64,000 bases of DNA, from the NCBI RefSeq assembly GCF_003057965.1, contig NZ_CP020921.1, positions 1,251,001 to 1,315,000 on the forward strand. Direction: 5' to 3'. This DNA is from Thermodesulfobium acidiphilum. GTDB taxonomy: Bacteria > Thermodesulfobiota > Thermodesulfobiia > Thermodesulfobiales > Thermodesulfobiaceae. Under the pieces are notes generated by a model. It had not been told where the DNA came from. It worked only from the letters and a program-made list of their open reading frames with translations, and searched no databases. A program made the translations under genes and the position numbers. Positions 33,445-44,397 of the stretch are shown here, piece after piece (position 1 is the stretch's first letter; every line of letters begins with the position of its first letter).

Positions 33445-35064
33445 TCAATATTCATCCCATGTTATATAAGGCTTCTTAAGATCAACCATAGCATTAACCA
33501 TCAGCTCAACTAGCCCACCGTAAGTAAGATTGAATTTATCCTTGCAGTTATAATGTGCAAAAATATCTCTGATTGTACCTTTACAATTTGAACACGGAGC
33601 ACATACATATTTTGGTATATTAGGATTCAATTCATCCTTGAAAGCATTCAAAATTTGATTCAGCTTCATTCTTGATGAAACTTTATTTCTCCATTGAGGA
33701 AAATTCAAACCTTGCATAATAGCAAATCCAGATCCCCCACCACAGCAATAATTATAGACACCATTTGGATGCATTTCTCTCCACCTTGGAGCAATAGTGT
33801 TTAATATATTCCTTTGAGGCATAACTATTCCCATATTCCTTACTATATTACATGGATCATGAAGGGTAACTGGAAAATTATTCTTCGATGGATCAAATTT
33901 TATAGCACCACTCTTATAAATTTCCCAAAATAAAGGCAAACAGGATTCTCTTGAAATTTCTGAACTAGCAAGATCACCTGTAAGAATTCTGTCTCCAATA
34001 ACACAAAATGCTTTTGTAGAGTGTCCACATTCACCAATAACTATTCTTTTAACACCCAGATCTTTCCCAATCTTTGCTTGCCTTAAAACTACTCTCGCAG
34101 CCTCAATATCATCATTCCAAAGACCATAGTTAATATTATCATATCCAACGGGTTCATCAGAGATTGTCCAGCTTATACCAGCAGCATCAAATAATATAGC
34201 AAATGCGGCTGGATTTTCATGCCAGGAAACGAATTCACCAGCATTATGAAGCAGTAATATGTCAGCACCCTTTTTATTGATGGGAAATTTAATTTTAATC
34301 CCAGTCTTTTCATATGTATCTTCCTCAATAAATTCCAGGTAGTCTCTCAGAGCCATCGGAGAAAGTCCAGTAGAAGAACCAACTGATAGTTGTAGTCGCG
34401 AACCCTTCTCCAGTATTTCAACTGGGGATATTCCCAATTCTTGACTCAAAAGGACTCTGATTTCTCTTGCAAGATAACCATTATCTATACCTACAGGGCA
34501 TCTTTGTGCACACCTTCTACAAAGATTACATCTGTGAGCTAATTCTGCTAATCTATATATAGTCTTCCAATTAAGTTCCACATCGGCACCCACAAAAGAT
34601 CCTAAAAGCTTTCCTTCAGGTGTAAAGTATTTCTTATATATCCTCCTTAGTATTTCTATTCGATAAGTAGGTCTATAAATTTCTTGTCTTCCGCTAGCAA
34701 TAAATACATGACACGCCTCAGAACAGGTTTGGCATCTTACACAATAGTCCAAACCAGTTTTTAAAATTTGCAACATAGTCCAGTTATTTTTTGGGTCCAA
34801 AAGTTTCTCAAACCCACTTAAAAATTTTCTGACAATTTCGTTCTCTTCTTCTCTAGTTTTAGGTGGATACAAATTACTAAGTGCTACATGACCATCCAAA
34901 TACCAATCGTAGGTGTTCTTTATTTTTTCACTAGGTGGCTCAAGTGGAGTTTCTTCATTTTTATCTATACCTAGAATATCTATTAAGTCATCAATCTCAA
35001 TAGGAGCCATGGGCTCACTAAGATCTTTTGAAATATCGTTAAATGGCGGTCTTTTTATTGCCAT
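33445..35064 (-). CDS. dsrK: DsrK-like (HdrD-type) iron-sulfur protein of a membrane DsrMK complex
   Basis: 539 aa from ATG 35064, preceded by AAGGAGTAATAAC; a longer frame runs inside dsrM. Two ferredoxin-type sites are present (CVRCQTCSEAC near residue 108 and CNLCRRCAQRC near 190), then the HdrD-like catalytic part with VIGECGHSTKAF, HDPCNIVRN, YNYCCGGGSGFA and CAPCSNCKGT. In sulfate reducers DsrK takes electrons from the membrane partner and is proposed to reduce the DsrC trisulfide. Overlaps dsrM by 26 nt. dsrJOP do not follow. Confidence 0.9.
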   Translation of the reverse strand: MAIKRPPFNDISKDLSEPMAPIEIDDLIDILGIDKNEETPLEPPSEKIKNTYDWYLDGHVALSNLYPPKTREEENEIVRKFLSGFEKLLDPKNNWTMLQILKTGLDYCVRCQTCSEACHVFIASGRQEIYRPTYRIEILRRIYKKYFTPEGKLLGSFVGADVELNWKTIYRLAELAHRCNLCRRCAQRCPVGIDNGYLAREIRVLLSQELGISPVEILEKGSRLQLSVGSSTGLSPMALRDYLEFIEEDTYEKTGIKIKFPINKKGADILLLHNAGEFVSWHENPAAFAILFDAAGISWTISDEPVGYDNINYGLWNDDIEAARVVLRQAKIGKDLGVKRIVIGECGHSTKAFCVIGDRILTGDLASSEISRESCLPLFWEIYKSGAIKFDPSKNNFPVTLHDPCNIVRNMGIVMPQRNILNTIAPRWREMHPNGVYNYCCGGGSGFAIMQGLNFPQWRNKVSSRMKLNQILNAFKDELNPNIPKYVCAPCSNCKGTIRDIFAHYNCKDKFNLTYGGLVELMVNAMVDLKKPYITWDEY

Positions 35065-35959
35065 TGTTATTACTCCTTTCTCCCACTTTAAGATTGGTAG
35101 CAACCTCAGCCCATGAAGCGCCAGGTATAGCATGAGAAGCAGACCAGAACTGCTTATATTTTAATTGCTCTTGAATAATTAAATCAATTTTTTCCCCTTT
35201 CAAATTAAGAGCATCATCCCACATAATACTATGCCATGTCCAATACTTTATTGGAGCATGCATAAACTTTGAAAACGGAAAATAAAACAGGAAAAATTGA
35301 AACAGGAAAAATTGAACAATTACAAAATTAGATATATTTACAGGCTTAAACGATATAACTGAGCCAAGATACTTTAAAATATCGTGATTTGCATCAAACA
35401 AAAAGGTTGAGAAAGTTGCCAAAAACAAAAAAAGGAGCAGAAAAAGATTAAAAAAATCTAAAGGAGTCGTATAAATCCTCAGCTCCTGTGAAAATATTCT
35501 TCTTAGAATCAAAATAAATGATCCCAATAATCCAAATGCTCCAGCTACAATTCCAAAAATACTCGATAGTTGTATCAAAAAATAAAAAGGCCAAAAAACA
35601 GAAAAAACTGATAAGAGAATCCATCCAAATAATAAATATAGTCCCCAATGCAAAAGTAAAGACGGAAACCAAAGACCATAAATATTGTATTCTTTTACTC
35701 TTTTCAAGAAAAGGACTTCTCTAAGGATTTCGATTATATCGTTTGTCCAGATATGTTTTAGTCCTTTTTTTACTTCTTCCACGTAGTTTGCATCTTCCAT
35801 ATAACTACCACCATAACTATACTTTGGATCATGGGCTACTGGATATAACTCTACTCTTAGATGTAAAGGCATATTGTTAACTTTTAATAATTTAATAAAA
35901 GATCCAAGAAAAAAACATATTACAGAAAACCATGCAAAATAGATCATAAATTGTCCCAA
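35039..35959 (-). CDS. dsrM: DsrM-like membrane cytochrome b subunit (NarI family)
   Basis: 306 aa. One helix at the N-terminus (residues 3-22), a cytoplasmic segment, then about four more helices (residues 100-235). Histidines in LLHWGLYLL and KFMHAPIKY fit haem b ligation as in the NarI/DsrM family. It would oxidise menaquinol and hand electrons to DsrK. TTG start after AAGGAGATAAAA. The C-terminal tail is soluble and hydrophilic. Together with dsrK it makes the minimal DsrMK module. Confidence 0.87.
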   Translation of the reverse strand: MGQFMIYFAWFSVICFFLGSFIKLLKVNNMPLHLRVELYPVAHDPKYSYGGSYMEDANYVEEVKKGLKHIWTNDIIEILREVLFLKRVKEYNIYGLWFPSLLLHWGLYLLFGWILLSVFSVFWPFYFLIQLSSIFGIVAGAFGLLGSFILILRRIFSQELRIYTTPLDFFNLFLLLFLFLATFSTFLFDANHDILKYLGSVISFKPVNISNFVIVQFFLFQFFLFYFPFSKFMHAPIKYWTWHSIMWDDALNLKGEKIDLIIQEQLKYKQFWSASHAIPGASWAEVATNLKVGERSNNNGNKKTAI

Positions 35960-36032: not shown

Positions 36033-36791
36033 AGTAACGTACATAATTTCCTGTAAAAGGGAAATGATTATCAATAAAGAAATATAAAAGGTCATCATCC
36101 TCTAATAGAGTATAGGGTTAGCTAAACCAAAACTATCGGAGGTGGACGATGACCAAATATAATATTACCTTAGATAAGGAAATTTTGCACTACCTTTTTT
36201 CAAGTAATGACAAAGGCATAAAAATGTTATTAGAACAAATATTAAACCAGATTCTTGAACAGCAAAGAACAGAGCAAGTTAATGCTGAACTCTATGAGCA
36301 TACAGAGGATAGAAAGGCATACAGAAATGGTTATAAAACAAGATGGTAATAAGAAGATTTTAAAGTAAGATCATGCAGCGCATTAATTGCAACACGGATA
36401 AATGCCAAGGGATATATGGAAATACTTGGAATAGAAATTGGAAACAGTGAGTCAAATAGAAGACTTTTAAATACAACAATTAAGATACAACAATTAAGAC
36501 CTTTTTCAAAAACTGCAAATAAAGCCTATGGATATATTAGAACAGGGATTTGATGATGCTGCAAGTATTATGATACTTGCAAAACATTTATAGAAAAAAG
36601 CTACGTACTACAAATAGTATCGAACGATTAAATGAAGAAATTCGACGTAGAGAAAGAGTAATACGTATATTTCCAAACAGGGAATCAGCAATGAGACTAA
36701 TAGGAGTACTATTAATGGAGCAAGATGAATTGTGGTTAACTGTAATTGATTTTGTCAGAGGATGAATTTACAGAAAAAATTGTACTTGATC
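36033..36791. mobile_element. IS256-family insertion sequence, decayed copy B
   Basis: 759 bp. Its first 420 bp match copy A (18388-19308) with only a handful of substitutions, including the same deletion after transposase residue 66. Unlike A it lost the middle block but keeps the transposase C-terminus. Same imperfect end repeats. A 14-bp tandem duplication (36471-36484 and 36485-36498) marks a repaired junction. It sits behind the dsrMK promoter, between that operon and the hydrogenase operon. Confidence 0.85.
36149..36764 (+). pseudogene. IS256-family transposase remnant (copy B)
   Basis: The N-terminal 66 codons are the same as in copy A and end at a stop. Pieces of the middle are lost. 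The C-terminal block LRTTNSIERLNEEIRRRE then VIRIFPNRESAMRLIGVLL, diagnostic of the IS256/mutator family, survives from about 36597 to 36764 in a separate frame. The DDE core is gone, so there is no transposase activity. Confidence 0.88.
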
Positions 36792-36996: not shown

Positions 36997-37488
36997 TTAA
37001 ACTTTACACTTTTCAGAATTATTAAGTAAGTTTATAATTCTTTCTACTACCACATCAATTGCCTTTTGCACCATTGGAGTACAATCTGTTCCAAATGTTT
37101 CACTATCAAGAAGCTCTATGGTAAAAATCTTTATATCTTTTGGCATATCATTACCTAGAATTTCCATTCCAATCTTTAAAGTTGATGATAAAGATATATT
37201 ATGAGATCCAGAATATGTAAGGGTATGCAACAAATCTTCGGGGGACATCTCCTTTATGGTGCCAGGAACGTTCCCTAAACGAATACCATCAACAATTATT
37301 GCTCTTTCATACCCATAAAGAGCATCCAATACATCAAAATCAGTGGTCATCAAGATATGCGTATCTACAAAACCCTCTAACTTTTTAGCCACTTTAATCC
37401 CAACTGAATCATCAGTTAGCACAGGATTTCCAATTCCTAAGACTACTGTTTTACCCTTTCTTTCAATACTTCTTTTATCAAAATCCAA
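36997..37488 (-). CDS. NiFe-hydrogenase maturation protease (HyaD/HycI/FrhD family)
   Basis: 163 aa. The family start VVLGIGNPVLTDDSVGIKVA carries the Ni-sensing Glu/Asp position as Asp, and AIIVDGIRLGNVPGTI holds the second. SGSHNISLSSTLKI supplies the conserved His. It removes the C-terminal peptide of the large subunit after nickel insertion. TTG start, 24 bp after the mvhA-like gene; the adjacent large subunit has a 26-residue tail to be cut. Last gene of the hdr-mvh operon. Confidence 0.92.
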   Translation of the reverse strand: MDFDKRSIERKGKTVVLGIGNPVLTDDSVGIKVAKKLEGFVDTHILMTTDFDVLDALYGYERAIIVDGIRLGNVPGTIKEMSPEDLLHTLTYSGSHNISLSSTLKIGMEILGNDMPKDIKIFTIELLDSETFGTDCTPMVQKAIDVVVERIINLLNNSEKCKV

Positions 37489-37512: not shown

Positions 37513-39045
37513 TTAAAAATTCTTAAGCGTTTTATAAAGTTTACCATCACAATCATATATGTCTATCTGCAAAGGATCGTGCCCAGGAAGAGCATGGGTA
37601 GCACACGCAAGACAAAGGTCATATGGTCTATAAGCTAACTCTACCATATTAAGCAGTCCCTCATTTACAACTCCATTCTTTATAAAGTTTTGTGCAGCAC
37701 GTTTTACAGCTATATTTATGGGACCTTTATTGTGAGTCGTAGCTACGATAAGATTAGCCTTTTCTACAATACCTTTTTCATCAGTTATATAATGATGAAT
37801 CAGCGTACCTCTCGGAGCTTCTACTATTCCTACTCCTTCTGATGCAGGCCCTAACTTTGACCTTACATCTGGATTGCATAAAGATTCATCCTTTGCTATT
37901 TCACGAATATTTTCCGCAGCACAAAGAAGCTCTATAGCTCTTGCCCAGTGATAACCCATAATGTTGTGAACCGGTTTATGCCCAAAAACGTCAAACATCT
38001 TCTCATATGCTTGTTGAGCTAATGGAGTAGGCATTCCACTTGCTACATTTAATCTTGGAAGTGGACCAACACTATAAAGGCTTGTATCAGGACCATCAAC
38101 TACACCCTTCCAACCTTTCTGTTTCAAATAAGGCATCTTCAGATAGCTCCATGGTAGAACTCTTTCAGAAATATAGTTAAGATATTCTTTGCCTTTGAAT
38201 CTTGCTATTTCTTTACCATTTGTATCTACAAATTTTTGTGTACCATCGTAAAAGGCTACTTTGTCGTTTTCATCTACAGAACCAAGATAATTGGTAACTA
38301 CTTTATACACATCCCCAGTAACCAATTTTACATACTCAGGATTTTTAAGAACTACATCTTCAAAGATTTTTAAAGTTAGCTGCCCTAGTTCTACCATTTC
38401 TTCAGCCAAAGCCATTATCTCTTTTCTTTCTTCTTGAGTAACTCTTTTTGACCAACCACCTGGAAGAGCTGCAACTGGATGTATAGGCTTGCCGCCCAAC
38501 ATTTCCAAAATTTTAACTGCTGCATATCTTTTCTTTAAAACCAATTTTCCAGTTTCAGCTCCAACAGCGTTAACCAAACCAATAAGGTTTCTCTCGGCAG
38601 GATTAGCCGTTGGCCCTACTACAAAATCAGGGAAACCAAGAGCATATAATATCGCAGCATGATCTTCTACATAATGCGCGTTGAAGAACAGCTCTCTTAT
38701 CTTACGGGCTGTAGGAGTAGGTTCCACATTATAAACTCCATCAGATGCCTTCATAGAAGCAGTGAAGTGTACCGCACGACATACTCCACAAATAGTTGAA
38801 ACTGTTCGTGGAACTTCCTCTATAGGCATACCTTGCACGAAACGCTCATATCCCCTCAGCTCAACCACCTGAAAAAAAGCGTTATCTACATTTCCCTTCT
38901 CGTCCAAGAATATACTTATTTTGCCGTGTCCTTCAAGACGAGTCATAGGATTAATTTCAATCTTTGTTAAAGCCATATCACTTCTCACTCCTTCTTTACT
39001 TTTCTGTCCACCGTGGAAAAGGTTTAAGATTCTCGAAAAATCCAC
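37513..39045 (-). CDS. mvhA: NiFe hydrogenase large subunit, MvhA-like (group 3c)
   Basis: Holds the Ni-Fe active site. The N-terminal ligand motif ICGVCRAVH (L1) and the C-terminal DLCLACATH (L2) provide the four cysteines; L2 has Leu where most relatives have Pro (DPCxxC). A 26-residue tail after the His would be removed by the protease encoded next. 510 aa from GTG 39045 (GGGGAG at 5 nt); the ATG at 38976 (MALTKIEINPMTR) matches the usual N-terminus and also has an AAGGAG, so either may be used. A 92-bp gap separates it from mvhG. Confidence 0.94.
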   Translation of the reverse strand: MDFSRILNLFHGGQKSKEGVRSDMALTKIEINPMTRLEGHGKISIFLDEKGNVDNAFFQVVELRGYERFVQGMPIEEVPRTVSTICGVCRAVHFTASMKASDGVYNVEPTPTARKIRELFFNAHYVEDHAAILYALGFPDFVVGPTANPAERNLIGLVNAVGAETGKLVLKKRYAAVKILEMLGGKPIHPVAALPGGWSKRVTQEERKEIMALAEEMVELGQLTLKIFEDVVLKNPEYVKLVTGDVYKVVTNYLGSVDENDKVAFYDGTQKFVDTNGKEIARFKGKEYLNYISERVLPWSYLKMPYLKQKGWKGVVDGPDTSLYSVGPLPRLNVASGMPTPLAQQAYEKMFDVFGHKPVHNIMGYHWARAIELLCAAENIREIAKDESLCNPDVRSKLGPASEGVGIVEAPRGTLIHHYITDEKGIVEKANLIVATTHNKGPINIAVKRAAQNFIKNGVVNEGLLNMVELAYRPYDLCLACATHALPGHDPLQIDIYDCDGKLYKTLKNF

Positions 39046-39137: not shown

Positions 39138-40106
39138 CTATGCCTTTTTCACTTTTTTACCCAGCATAGATGAAGGAAGCGAATACCGATAGAACAATTT
39201 TACAGGACTAGGTATTTGTTCTACTAACTCTTCATTATCAAGTATTGATGCTATAGCGCTTATTGCTCTTAGTCCGAAATCTTTTACTCCAGGTATTGGT
39301 CCGCCGCAACCCGCACACGGGATATTTACCTTGGTACAAAGAGCCCCACAGTCTCCCTGAGTAATAGGTCCTAGACACATATAACCCTGTTGAAGCAAAC
39401 ACTTGTTTTCATCTGGATCTCCTTCTATTGTCCTTCTCACTTCTTTTACCAGTTCTCTCTTCTCATCTGTATTTCGTGGGTTTCTTGGACACACATCACA
39501 TACAGCCTTACCATTTGTTATCCATGAACCCTTAGGAGGCAATTCTCCTTTCAAAATAGCTACAAGAGCGTTTAGTACCACAGAATGGTGAGGCGGACAC
39601 CCTCCGATAAAATAGTCAACATCAATTACTGATTGAATAGGTCTCACATAAGGATAAAATTCAGGCAGTGTAAGATCATACTTTCCGTCCATAAGATAAT
39701 GAGGTTGAGGTGTTATGCCATCCGGATTATCAGTGCTAAACGTATCAAAGTACGCAGTCTGGAATATGTCTTCTTTTGTATGCATATTCGCCATACCGGG
39801 AATACCACCCATAGCGGCGCACGCTCCATAAGCAACTACTACGTTACACTTTGCCCTCATAACCTTAGACATATGTTCATGTTCGTCTAAGCGAATCATT
39901 CCAGAAATAAGTCCAACATCAACTGATTTATCGGGCATAGCCTCTAAGTCTTTGTATTTCACATCAGCAACTGTAGGCGCCCAAAACACTACTTCTAGAG
40001 AGGGTAGTACATCTACAAGGGTCTCCGAAATATCAACTATAGCCATATCACAACCGCCGCAGGCCCCCGCCATTAAAACAGCCAATCTAAGTTTTTTGTC
40101 TGCCAT
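39138..40106 (-). CDS. mvhG: NiFe hydrogenase small subunit, MvhG-like
   Basis: 322 aa, cytoplasmic (no Tat signal). Proximal Fe-S cluster ligands: GACGGCDMA, VAYGACAAMGG and FIGGCPPHHS. Further cysteines (AVCDVCPRN, KCLLQQGYMCLGPITQGDCGALC, PCAGCGG) carry the additional clusters of the MvhG/FrhG type. It relays electrons from the Ni-Fe site of MvhA towards MvhD and HdrA. Start codon overlaps the mvhD stop (TAATG). Confidence 0.94.
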   Translation of the reverse strand: MADKKLRLAVLMAGACGGCDMAIVDISETLVDVLPSLEVVFWAPTVADVKYKDLEAMPDKSVDVGLISGMIRLDEHEHMSKVMRAKCNVVVAYGACAAMGGIPGMANMHTKEDIFQTAYFDTFSTDNPDGITPQPHYLMDGKYDLTLPEFYPYVRPIQSVIDVDYFIGGCPPHHSVVLNALVAILKGELPPKGSWITNGKAVCDVCPRNPRNTDEKRELVKEVRRTIEGDPDENKCLLQQGYMCLGPITQGDCGALCTKVNIPCAGCGGPIPGVKDFGLRAISAIASILDNEELVEQIPSPVKLFYRYSLPSSMLGKKVKKA

Positions 40107-40522
40107 TATACTCCCTCCTTTACTCTGCAGGGTCCTAATTCTCTAATGTTCTTTTCAAAAGTGGTCATAGCCTCAGCAAATCTCTTCCCTTCAGAACCAG
40201 AAATCCACTCTAATTGAAATCTTTCCTTTTCTATCCCCATATCAATAAGGATCCGTTTTAATAGATCGAATCTTCTTATAGCCTTATAGTTTCCTTCTTT
40301 ATAATGGCAATCTCCTGGGTGACATCCTCCAATAAAGACTCCATCAGCCCCTCTCTTAAAAGCCTCAACTACAAATTCAGGCTCTACTCTACCGCTACAA
40401 GGGACTCGAATTATCTTTATATTTGCTGGATAATCATATCGCAAGCTCCCTGCAAGATCAGCCCCCTGATAAGTACACCAGTTACACGCAAAAACTATTA
40501 AGTTAGGCGTCCATTCGCTCAT
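40106..40522 (-). CDS. mvhD: MvhD/FlpD-type 2Fe-2S electron-transfer subunit
   Basis: 138 aa. Five conserved cysteines in VFACNWCTYQGAD, RVPCSGRV and GGCHPGDCHY define the MvhD family, which carries one 2Fe-2S cluster and links a hydrogenase (or formate dehydrogenase) to HdrA. It is separate here, not fused to HdrA. Its place between hdrB and mvhG is as expected for a bifurcating Hdr-Mvh complex. Confidence 0.95.
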   Translation of the reverse strand: MSEWTPNLIVFACNWCTYQGADLAGSLRYDYPANIKIIRVPCSGRVEPEFVVEAFKRGADGVFIGGCHPGDCHYKEGNYKAIRRFDLLKRILIDMGIEKERFQLEWISGSEGKRFAEAMTTFEKNIRELGPCRVKEGV

Positions 40523-40544: not shown

Positions 40545-41438
40545 CTAGTTTATCTTCTTTAGCTTTCCTAATATTCCACTCAGATCCGTTGTACTAAGTC
40601 CTACAACTTGCTGTGGATCTGCCCCCAAACAAAGAGCTAACAACTGTACATAATGAACAGAAGGAATCTCATAATTAATCTTATTTTCCCTTTTCATAGG
40701 AGCCTGAGCAGTATCGAATTGGATAAGACAAGAGCTACATCCTGTAACCAAAAGATCTGCTTTTATTTCATCTTTCATTGAATCAAGCTTTGTTTTTACC
40801 AATTTATATGAAGCCTCAACGTTCGTAGATCGCATTCCACCCATCCCACAACAATCTACAATACGACTATAATAAGGAGCAGATGCTCCAAGGGCTTCAC
40901 ACAACTCCCTCAACATAACTGGATGAAATGGATCTTTTTCTCCTTCCTGATAAACTTCACTTGGCCACAGTGAATGACATCCTGGTTGAACGCCAATAGT
41001 TACACCTTCCAAAGTATATTTCAATGAATTTTTAATTTTTTCAATACCTACTTCGTTGTACAAAAAGTTAGTCGCAAGTCTAATCCTCGTCGTTCCCTTA
41101 TATTCTTTGCCAATAGCTTTAAGCATCTCGTTTACCTTTTCTCTTAGTTCTGGTTTCTTTTCCATTTTATATTTACTCTCTGACAAACTCCCATAGCAAC
41201 TTCCACAAACTGTAACCATATCAACGTTCTTTTCTTCAGATATTATAAAGTTACGCGCTCCTAATGCACACCACCCGGCTTCGTCAACAGAAGGCATCGT
41301 CCCCCAACTTGGGCAACAAGATTGACCCTCTAAATCGTCAATTTCAATACCAAGCGCGTCAAATACGAAACGAAATGCCTTTTCCAGATCTGGTCTATTA
41401 AATGCAGTATTACATCCTATAAAAAATCCTACTTTCAT
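40545..41438 (-). CDS. hdrB: Heterodisulfide reductase subunit B
   Basis: 297 aa with two CCG domains: SCCPSWGTMPS with VCGSCYGSL, and PGCHSLWPS, VDCCGMGGMR with GCSSCLIQFD. These bind the two non-cubane 4Fe-4S clusters where methanogens reduce CoM-S-S-CoB. This bacterium should use a different disulfide or thiol couple, which the sequence does not reveal. Lies 3 bp after hdrC. Confidence 0.95.
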   Translation of the reverse strand: MKVGFFIGCNTAFNRPDLEKAFRFVFDALGIEIDDLEGQSCCPSWGTMPSVDEAGWCALGARNFIISEEKNVDMVTVCGSCYGSLSESKYKMEKKPELREKVNEMLKAIGKEYKGTTRIRLATNFLYNEVGIEKIKNSLKYTLEGVTIGVQPGCHSLWPSEVYQEGEKDPFHPVMLRELCEALGASAPYYSRIVDCCGMGGMRSTNVEASYKLVKTKLDSMKDEIKADLLVTGCSSCLIQFDTAQAPMKRENKINYEIPSVHYVQLLALCLGADPQQVVGLSTTDLSGILGKLKKIN

Positions 41439-41441
41439 CGG

Positions 41442-42008
41442 CTACACCTCACAACAAGTGACATCGGATAACCCTGAGTCCATTGGGATAATTCCCAACG
41501 AAGACAGTGCTGACTTGTTCATTAGAATTCTTAGCTCTTTTAGAGCTTGTTCATTACTTGCCGTTGTAGGAGGCTTTTCCGGCAAACCTATTTTCTTTCT
41601 AATTTCACCTGCATTAGAAAAGTATACGGCGTGGCCTACATCATATAATGATTTCAAACCTTCTACTGCAAGAGTTGGCAACGCAAACTCTCTAATTGCA
41701 GAACGCCTCATTGCCATAACCACACCAAAAGGCTCTACCTTTCGTGGGCACACCTCAGTACATCTATTACATGCCTGACAAGCCCAGATAGAACTATCAT
41801 CAAGCAAAATCTCCTTTTGACCTATTAGAATTGACTGAATAATACGCTTATTGAAAAATTCAAAACCTGCAAGAACCATCGGACACGCAGCAGCACATTT
41901 GGCACACTGGATACAATCCAACAATTCCTCTGCTCCAAGTTTCATTATCTCATCAGAAAAACCTGGCTCACCCTCTGAAATATTAAGAACTTCTATTACT
42001 TCAGCCAC
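41442..42008 (-). CDS. hdrC: Heterodisulfide reductase subunit C
   Basis: 188 aa. Two 4Fe-4S sites, CIQCAKCAAACPM near residue 33 and CQACNRCTEVCPRKV near residue 85, carry electrons from HdrA to HdrB. No membrane helix, so it belongs to the soluble HdrABC type. 14 bp after the ferredoxin gene. Confidence 0.95.
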   Translation of the reverse strand: MAEVIEVLNISEGEPGFSDEIMKLGAEELLDCIQCAKCAAACPMVLAGFEFFNKRIIQSILIGQKEILLDDSSIWACQACNRCTEVCPRKVEPFGVVMAMRRSAIREFALPTLAVEGLKSLYDVGHAVYFSNAGEIRKKIGLPEKPPTTASNEQALKELRILMNKSALSSLGIIPMDSGLSDVTCCEV

Positions 42009-42022
42009 TAACGTTCACCTCC

Positions 42023-42301
42023 TTAAAAAGTCAAATTCTCTATTTGAGATTCAATTTCTTCAGTAGTAAAGCCTTCTAAAATTATTGCTCTAGAAGGACA
42101 CGCAGCCACACATACCCCACATCCTGTACAGAGAGCTGGATCTATGTGTGCCCTCTTCTTGCCCTTGTATTCTATCCAACCAATAGCAGAGTAGGAACAT
42201 AATGGCAAGCAAACGCCGCATCCACTACACTTATCAAGATCAATTTCTGAGACTAAAGCTTCAACGTTATCTGTAATTTTAGGGATCTCAGTTACTGCCA
42301 T
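42023..42301 (-). CDS. Stand-alone 2[4Fe-4S] ferredoxin, near-copy of the HdrA C-terminus
   Basis: 92 aa with two sites, CSGCGVCLPLCSYSA and CTGCGVCVAACPSRA. Residues from about 20 to the end match the last 73 residues of HdrA almost throughout, including the shared stretch KKRAHIDPALCTGCGVC and the identical plan of the ending (GFTTE.IESQIE.LTF). Roughly 80 percent looks identical by eye. It may be an extra electron-transfer module for the complex or a swappable carrier. Start follows a good GAGGTG. Confidence 0.93.
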   Translation of the reverse strand: MAVTEIPKITDNVEALVSEIDLDKCSGCGVCLPLCSYSAIGWIEYKGKKRAHIDPALCTGCGVCVAACPSRAIILEGFTTEEIESQIENLTF

Positions 42302-42322
42302 TACCGTTCACCTCCTCATTTT

Positions 42323-44353
42323 TTAAAAAGTAAGGGCCTCTATTTGTGACTCAATCTGCTCGGTGGTAAAACCATGTAAAGTTATTGCTCTAGAAGGACA
42401 TGCTGAAGCACATACTCCACATCCTGTGCAAAGAGCTGGATCTATGTGTGCCCTCTTCTTATCACCATATTCCTTCCAGCTAATAGCAGAATATGGACAA
42501 AGTGGTAAGCATATACCACACCCACTACACTTATCTGCATTCACCTCAGAAATTAGAGGTTCTACTACAACTCTGCCCGTTGTCAACGGTACTGCCGCTG
42601 CTGCTGCTGCTGCCCTAGCTTGAGATACGCTTTCTGGAATATCTTTTGGTCCTTGAGCACAACCAGCAATGTAAATACCTTTGACTGAGGTCTCTACAGG
42701 ATAAAGCTTGGTATGTAATTCTTTCAAAAAACCTTCTCCACCACATTGTATTCCAAGCTTCCTTCCAAGCTCTTCAATCCCAGGCGGAGGCTCTATTGCA
42801 GTAGCAAGAATAACCATATCAGATTCTAATTCTACAGGAGCTCCCATATCTACGTCATATGCACGTACGCGCAAACGATCGCCCGGTAATTCATCTACAC
42901 CTCCCACACGACCTCTTATCACTCTGATACCTAGCTCTCTGCAGTAAGTATAATATTCTTCAAAATCCTTACCTGCAGTACGTACGTCAATAAAGAATAT
43001 ATAAACGTTAATATCTGGGTATTTCTCTTTGATTAACCTCGCTTCCTTCAACATATACATACAACAAACTTTGGAACAATAGCGATGATAATTTTTATCT
43101 CTACTGCCCACACATGAAATAAAAGCAACCGTCTTAGGATGTTGATTGTCAGAAGGCCTAAGAAGTTCACCTTCCGTGGGACCAGTAGCAGAAAGTATTC
43201 TCTCAAACTGCAAAGAAGTAAGAACATTTGGTGATTGAGGAGAATACTCTTTGAATGGAGTTTTATCCATAGCCTTAAATCCAGTCGCTGCAATTATTGT
43301 ACCTACTTTTATTTCGATCAATTGACCTTTAGGATCCCATGGTATAGATCTATCACATGCACCTGTTGGGCATGCCTTTTCACAGGGAGACAAAATTGGC
43401 TCCCCTGTCTTTGGATGGGGTTTTGGTTGAGTTCCAATAGTTCTCCCAGCACAGTTTAAACAATGATCTATGTCTACTACTGCTTTTTTAGGCACTGCCT
43501 GAGGAAATTCAATATATACAGCCTTTCTCTTGTCCATGTTTTCATTAAACTCATTATCAACTTTGCCCGGACAAGCTTCTACACAAGCACCACAACCGGT
43601 GCATTTATCCCAATCAATATAAGTCTGCTTTTTACGCACAAGAACCTTGAAATTTCCAATAGAACCATCTATCGATTCTACTTCTGAATAGGTCAAAAGC
43701 TCAATATTTGGGTGCGTTCCAGCAGAAACCATTATTGGTGTTAAAATACATGCTGAACAATCATTTGTAGGAAAGGTTTTATCAAGCTTTGCCATGTTCC
43801 CGCCAATTGAAGGCTGTCTGTCAAGTAAATAAACCTTATAGCCCATATTGGCAATATCAAGAGCAGCAAAAATTCCTGATACACCCGCCCCAATCACGAG
43901 GGTAGCTTTTGTAACATCGACATAAGAGTCTTCTAGAGGTTCAGCCAACCTTACTTTGGCAACAGCACTTGCAACCAATTTTTTTGCCTTCTCTGTAGCT
44001 CCAGCCTTATCATGCCAGTGTGCCCAGCTATCTTGATCTCTAATGTTAGCCATTTCAAAGAAATACTTGTTTAAACCCGCATCTGATACAGCTTTTCTAA
44101 AGATTGGTTCGTGAGTTCTGGGCGTACACGCAGCAACGACAACTCTGTTTACAACCCCGTTTCTAATGTCTTCTTTAATTAACTCCTGCCCTGGGTCAGA
44201 ACACATAAACATATAATCTCTTGCAATAGCAACATTGGGTAAAGATTCAGCAAATTTTCTGACCGCTTCGACGTCTACCGCACCTGCGATATTCTCGCCA
44301 CAATGACATACGTAGACACCAATTTTAAGAGCATCTTCCCCGCTAGCACTCAT
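42323..44353 (-). CDS. hdrA: Heterodisulfide reductase subunit A (FAD, electron-bifurcating)
   Basis: 676 aa from ATG 44353 (spaced from AAGGAGGG; the ATG at 44359 touches that site). An N-terminal region with YVCHCGENIAG precedes the FAD fold (VIGAGVSGIFAALDIANMG), an inserted ferredoxin site CTGCGACVEACPGKV, CLNCAG...CEKACPTGAC, the block around SKVCCMYMLKEA, and two C-terminal 4Fe-4S sites. HdrA is where electrons from H2 are bifurcated to ferredoxin and HdrBC. No selenocysteine codon is needed. First gene of hdrA-fd-hdrC-hdrB-mvhDGA-protease. Confidence 0.96.
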   Translation of the reverse strand: MSASGEDALKIGVYVCHCGENIAGAVDVEAVRKFAESLPNVAIARDYMFMCSDPGQELIKEDIRNGVVNRVVVAACTPRTHEPIFRKAVSDAGLNKYFFEMANIRDQDSWAHWHDKAGATEKAKKLVASAVAKVRLAEPLEDSYVDVTKATLVIGAGVSGIFAALDIANMGYKVYLLDRQPSIGGNMAKLDKTFPTNDCSACILTPIMVSAGTHPNIELLTYSEVESIDGSIGNFKVLVRKKQTYIDWDKCTGCGACVEACPGKVDNEFNENMDKRKAVYIEFPQAVPKKAVVDIDHCLNCAGRTIGTQPKPHPKTGEPILSPCEKACPTGACDRSIPWDPKGQLIEIKVGTIIAATGFKAMDKTPFKEYSPQSPNVLTSLQFERILSATGPTEGELLRPSDNQHPKTVAFISCVGSRDKNYHRYCSKVCCMYMLKEARLIKEKYPDINVYIFFIDVRTAGKDFEEYYTYCRELGIRVIRGRVGGVDELPGDRLRVRAYDVDMGAPVELESDMVILATAIEPPPGIEELGRKLGIQCGGEGFLKELHTKLYPVETSVKGIYIAGCAQGPKDIPESVSQARAAAAAAAVPLTTGRVVVEPLISEVNADKCSGCGICLPLCPYSAISWKEYGDKKRAHIDPALCTGCGVCASACPSRAITLHGFTTEQIESQIEALTF

Positions 44354-44397
44354 ACTCATCCCTCCTTAGAGAATTTATAAAAACCATCCTAAAATTA

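Follow-up and report, generated by a model that had tools for sequence, protein, structure and literature searches.

Gene content of the locus

The window (i.e., the whole stretch of 64,000 nucleotides analyzed; G+C content, about 34%) lies in a single-contig genome of 1.77 Mb that also carries qmo- and dsrK-like genes. Its minus strand encodes, from position 44359 to 36997, hdrA, a small ferredoxin gene (here designated fd), hdrC, hdrB, mvhD, mvhG, mvhA, and a gene for a hydrogenase maturation protease (Table 1). The six subunit genes of HdrABC-MvhAGD are encoded together at the locus, and homology predicts that the complex bifurcates electrons from H2, by way of a flavin, between ferredoxin and a second acceptor. 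A first-pass annotation of this DNA had placed the hdrA and fd reading frames at the positions where we found them, and had described the layout as unusual. This description holds for the inserted fd but not for the rest of the gene order, because hdrA-hdrC-hdrB-mvhD-mvhG-mvhA-protease is common in bacteria (e.g., Desulfotruncus arcticus, L036). The HdrA of the window is 75% identical to that of Desulfotruncus and 81% identical to that of genome G017.

Several other features of the genome were recorded. Genes for a NarI-like membrane cytochrome and a DsrK/HmcF-like iron-sulfur protein lie downstream of the hydrogenase operon, in a two-gene order that is kept in two related genomes (G001 and G003), and two fragments of a Mutator-family transposase are located between the protease gene and this pair. 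In a second HdrA-type cluster (L033, 1674-7911), a gene for an 861-aa HdrA-like protein without a C-terminal ferredoxin domain adjoins one for a 574-aa protein with the domain, together with small HdrC/HdrB-like and MvhD-like genes. The HdrA of the window has a cysteine (Cys204) at a position where the HdrA frames of loci L037, L113, L115, L116, L117, and L120 have an in-frame TGA, within DCSA(U). These six frames apparently encode selenocysteine-containing HdrA, which is known from Desulfobacterium autotrophicum (PMC2702500).

Table 1 Features of the hdr-mvh locus and its surroundings in the window
Feature	Position	Strand	Basis or remark
hdrA, 678 aa, bifurcating flavoprotein subunit retaining a C-terminal ferredoxin domain	42323..44359	-	NCBIfam HdrA models
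hdrA 3' end, residues 602-678 and stop; very probable parent copy of the duplicated domain	42323..42556	-	
hdrA core, other side of the conversion tract	42409..42460	-	
Leader copy 1 (GGAGGTGAACGGTA), before fd	42302..42315	-	one of two GGAGGTGAACGNTA sites in the genome
fd, stand-alone 2[4Fe-4S] ferredoxin, 92 aa	42023..42301	-	residues 16-92 = 42026-42256
fd core, homogenized with hdrA within species	42109..42160	-	alignment A3, columns 97-148
Leader copy 2 (GGAGGTGAACGTTA), before hdrC	42009..42022	-	one of two GGAGGTGAACGNTA sites in the genome
hdrC	41442..42008	-	TIGR03290
hdrB	40545..41438	-	TIGR03288
mvhD	40106..40522	-	PF02662
mvhG, hydrogenase small subunit	39138..40106	-	VhuG
mvhA, [NiFe]-hydrogenase large subunit	37513..39045	-	VhuA
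Hydrogenase maturation protease	36997..37488	-	TIGR00072
Mutator-family transposase, two fragments	36149-36349, 36577-36765	+	PF00872
NarI-like membrane cytochrome and DsrK/HmcF-like iron-sulfur protein	33445-35959	-	

Similarity of the ferredoxin to the C terminus of HdrA

The product of fd contains two CxxCxxCxxxC cluster motifs and a C-terminal helix. All eight cluster cysteines were invariant among the 51 sequences compared, and the proline that follows the fourth cysteine, otherwise nearly invariant, is serine in the ferredoxins of two genomes. The last 77 residues of the ferredoxin (16 to 92) and of HdrA (602 to 678) align without gaps, with 61 of 77 identical. The same codon is used at 40 of these 61 positions, and the DNA likeness runs through to the last codon, in keeping with the visible DNA similarity mentioned in the first-pass annotation; the repeat of the HdrA tail described there is also present, its length being 77 rather than 73 residues. 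Upstream of residue 16, the likeness to HdrA is weaker and not significant at the protein level. When the ferredoxin was searched against its own genome, HdrA matched with an E value of 8e-40, whereas the next ferredoxin-like frames outside the HdrA/Qmo paralogues scored 8e-10 or worse, a gap showing that the match far exceeds generic 4Fe-4S similarity. Because fd is a separate open reading frame with its own leader and is unfused to the FAD-binding part of HdrA, its product is best regarded as a descendant of the HdrA domain and not itself an HdrA. HdrA retains an intact C-terminal ferredoxin domain, so the ferredoxin adds to this domain and does not replace it.

Structural comparisons led to the same relatives. 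An AlphaFold model of the ferredoxin showed a confident core (pLDDT of >90) and a C-terminal helix at residues 80 to 91; the first dozen residues were poorly defined. The seven best matches in a fold search of the PDB were all HdrA chains, and ferredoxins such as 3eun, 1xer, and 1fca were also retrieved. In sequence profile searches, the HdrA chains of 5odc, 8rvu, 8rvv, and 9sfi matched via their C-terminal ferredoxin domain (E values of 1e-18 to 1e-26); polyferredoxins such as MvhB were also among the matches.

Distribution across genomes

The phylum comprises four genomes, all of one genus: the window genome (G000), G001, G002, and G003. The G+C content and the qmo- and dsrK-like genes suggest that this genus is Thermodesulfobium. 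The fd gene occupies the same operon position in three of them, with products 95% (G001) and 83% (G003) identical to that of the window. G002 (94% complete, 140 contigs) yielded no match to fd, to an Mvh-type hdrA tail, or to mvhA.

Outside the genus, we surveyed about 1,150 genomes, covering the class and phylum around D. arcticus, the phylum around a Thermodesulfobacterium genome, and the phylum around a Nitrospirae genome. All matches were embedded in HdrA, in open frames of at least 239 residues, among the best 13 to 46 candidates scored per genome, a depth at which a very diverged free copy could escape and a close one should not. Of 108 distinct loci, the gene after hdrA was hdrC in 50 (with no ferredoxin between) and mvhD in 37. 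Small frames with two cluster motifs were all HdrC-like, with no fd-type ferredoxin among them. Viral contigs scanned with the domain gave one weak match. In the literature searched, we found no description of a free copy of the HdrA C terminus and no paper naming HdrA, MvhD, ferredoxin, and Thermodesulfobium together. As far as surveyed, fd is confined to one genus of H2-using sulfate reducers.

Phylogeny and traces of a tandem duplication

In two maximum-likelihood trees, the three ferredoxins grouped with the three HdrA tails of their own genus (support of 100/99 and 95/99) and not with unrelated ferredoxins; the trees rest on a short domain (80 to 90 columns), and their deeper branches are unresolved. 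The neighbor of this group was the HdrA of G017, and the nearest relatives of the ferredoxin were HdrA C termini, never free ferredoxins. In trees of the whole domain, the three ferredoxins stay apart from the three HdrAs, so the three fd-bearing species most likely diverged after the duplication.

A second trace is a duplicated leader. The sequence GGAGGTGAACGNTA occurs at exactly two sites in the genome, directly before fd and directly before hdrC, and the shorter GGAGGTGAACG is absent from all loci fetched from outside the genus. Comparison of the hdrA-fd spacer with the fd-hdrC spacer of G003, leader included, showed a difference at 1 of 16 bases. The restriction of GGAGGTGAACGNTA to these two sites indicates that the duplication took the 3' end of hdrA along with the hdrA-hdrC leader. 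As read from the sequence, the duplicated unit runs from within hdrA via its stop codon through the leader. The upstream junction probably lies just inside the 5' end of hdrC, the first codons of which would have given fd its start. The starts of the two genes would then correspond (MAEVIEVLNISE versus MAVTEIPKITD). DNA shuffle tests lent this junction modest support (P = 0.002, 0.033, and 0.012); protein-level tests deriving the first 15 ferredoxin residues from the hdrC start or from HdrA residues 581 to 604 were not significant.

Gene conversion between fd and hdrA

A 234-bp alignment of six copies (three of fd and three of hdrA) revealed a mosaic. At both ends, sites group by gene (ferredoxin versus HdrA), whereas in a core of about 52 bp (columns 97 to 148) they group by species. 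Within this core, fd and hdrA of G001 are identical; those of the window genome differ at 3 sites, versus 4 between its fd and that of G001; and those of G003 differ at 10 sites, versus 13 between its fd and the other ferredoxins. A GENECONV-like permutation test of 15 pairs, which is independent of chosen tract boundaries, detected a run of 15 variable sites shared by fd and hdrA of G001 (P = 0.0002) and a signal in the same region for fd and hdrA of the window genome (P = 0.011). Fisher tests by species pair, with boundaries picked after inspection of the data, gave P values of 0.0006, 0.003, and 0.007. These statistics show that within-species gene conversion has replaced the core, including the second cluster motif; in the flanks, older differences specific to each gene persist. 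The stretch KKRAHIDPALCTGCGVC, to which the first-pass annotation had drawn attention, lies in the homogenized core, so its very high identity stems both from the original duplication and from copying after it.

Taken together, the trees, the duplicated leader, the restriction to one genus, and the local conversion signals bear out the origin proposed in the first-pass annotation, and we consider it very probable that fd is a duplicate of the HdrA C-terminal domain. A wide and old ferredoxin family in hdr operons, which that annotation had named as the competing outcome, was not encountered, with no free copy in the roughly 1,150 genomes. That fd is an unrelated or anciently associated ferredoxin merely resembling the HdrA tail can be dismissed for practical purposes: 4Fe-4S motifs are generally alike, but tree placement, the duplicated leader, the full-length colinear match, and the absence elsewhere all contradict it. 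On this reading, the hdrA 3' end and the hdrA-hdrC leader were duplicated in tandem, which equipped the detached domain with a ribosome-binding site and a start. The ends of the copies then diverged, and their middle was overwritten by conversion.

Selective constraint and protein properties

The ferredoxin is under purifying selection and is maintained, though less constrained than HdrA (dN/dS of 0.10 to 0.125 versus 0.012 to 0.038, with dS near 1 for the fd comparisons). Its frame, ribosome-binding site, and cluster ligands are intact in three species. Of all operon products, it is the one conserved least between the window genome and G003 (82.6% identity), followed by the protease (84.0%), HdrB (88.2%), HdrC (91.5%), MvhG and MvhA (both 93.5%), HdrA (95.1%), and MvhD (97.1%). 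It is also more acidic than the HdrA domain (pI of 4.55 to 4.67 versus 5.5). The HdrA-type C-terminal helix (ESQIE.LTF), which lies outside the conversion tract, is nearly unchanged in the ferredoxins of all three genomes.

Possible roles of the ferredoxin

In solved complexes, electrons from H2 pass from MvhAG via MvhD to the flavin of HdrA (PMC12350162, PMC9012536, PMC6019823), and the N- and C-terminal domains of HdrA, together with the MvhD-type subunit, make up a mobile arm (PMC12350162). Low-potential electrons exit via the inserted ferredoxin domain of HdrA, where MvhB and FmdF of methanogens dock (PMC12350162, PMC9012536, PMC6019823); MvhB, which docks at this domain as the expected electron exit, is encoded in the mvh operon (PMC12350162). 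Against this background, the best overall explanation of fd, to which we assign a probability of about 0.55, is a genus-specific tandem duplicate with later conversion that serves as a carrier for the Hdr-Mvh complex. The role itself, a small electron carrier dedicated to this complex, is put forward tentatively from sequence features. Soluble, acidic, and encoded alongside HdrABC-MvhDGA, the 2[4Fe-4S] protein could act as a dedicated carrier that accepts the low-potential electrons generated by HdrA from H2 through flavin-based bifurcation and relays them. Its acidity and faster evolution favor this role; several other small ferredoxins in the genome, which are possible acceptors of the same electrons, count against it.

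A somewhat less probable alternative is that the ferredoxin binds the Hdr-Mvh complex stoichiometrically at the surface that receives the HdrA C-terminal domain (e.g., MvhD or the mobile arm), where it would add or swap an electron path and possibly couple another donor to HdrA. The near-identity of the C-terminal helix and tail to those of HdrA speaks for docking, since the helix has no evident use in a free carrier, and the arm seen with the MvhD-type subunit (PMC12350162) and the location of fd inside the operon fit as well. However, with an intact HdrA copy present, a second one must compete or find a new site, and the low conservation and acidity of the ferredoxin count against docking. 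About as probable as docking is a reading in which a domain of a bifurcating enzyme has been released as a dedicated, exchangeable electron shuttle or arm of its own complex and is kept compatible with its parent by conversion.

It is improbable that fd is a duplicate without a separate role, kept through dosage or chance, with conversion holding it close to its parent. Conversion is easy between tandem repeats separated by a few hundred bases, and constraint on fd is relaxed relative to that on HdrA, but dN/dS remains well below 1 at a dS near 1, the gene is intact in all three species, and conversion is limited to its middle. Still less likely, and indeed very unlikely, is that the ferredoxin supplies a C-terminal domain in trans to an HdrA-like protein lacking one (the 861-aa protein or QmoA). 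The genome does encode HdrA-like proteins that stop short of the domain (L033 and L034), and archaeal HdrA classes without it are known (PMC12054007); however, the candidate partner genes are located elsewhere in the genome, the 861-aa protein already has a domain-bearing neighbor, and G002, which lacks fd, has a homologue of this neighbor with its own C-terminal ferredoxin domain (L024).

Significance and comparison with known systems

Anaerobic energy metabolism depends centrally on ferredoxins, and little is known about how a bifurcating complex selects its ferredoxin. With its duplicated leader still visible, fd shows an internal electron-transfer domain turning into an independent redox gene within its own operon, and its conversion tract cautions that two such copies can be highly identical without having arisen by recent duplication. 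As a naturally detached copy of the HdrA arm domain, the ferredoxin also offers a small probe with which to test what surface is important. If fd does encode a released shuttle or arm, Hdr complexes would have a second type of connection to their partners in addition to polyferredoxins.

The HdrABC-MvhAGD complex itself is already known; what is new here is the occurrence of an HdrA domain as its own gene in the operon. The hdrACB-mvhDGA operons of the sulfate reducers Desulfotruncus and Thermodesulfobacterium share the gene order and the maturation protease with the present locus, but in them hdrA and hdrC are not separated by a ferredoxin gene. The C-terminal domain of HdrA in structurally characterized HdrABC-MvhAGD complexes (PDB 5odc, 7bkb, and 8rvu) resembles the ferredoxin in sequence, fold, and C-terminal helix, whereas here the domain additionally exists as its own gene, with a leader, beside an intact HdrA. 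The MvhB and FmdF polyferredoxins of methanogens (PMC12350162) are, like the ferredoxin, extra 4Fe-4S carriers linked to the complex, but they contain many clusters and have another origin, whereas the ferredoxin has two clusters and very probably derives from HdrA.
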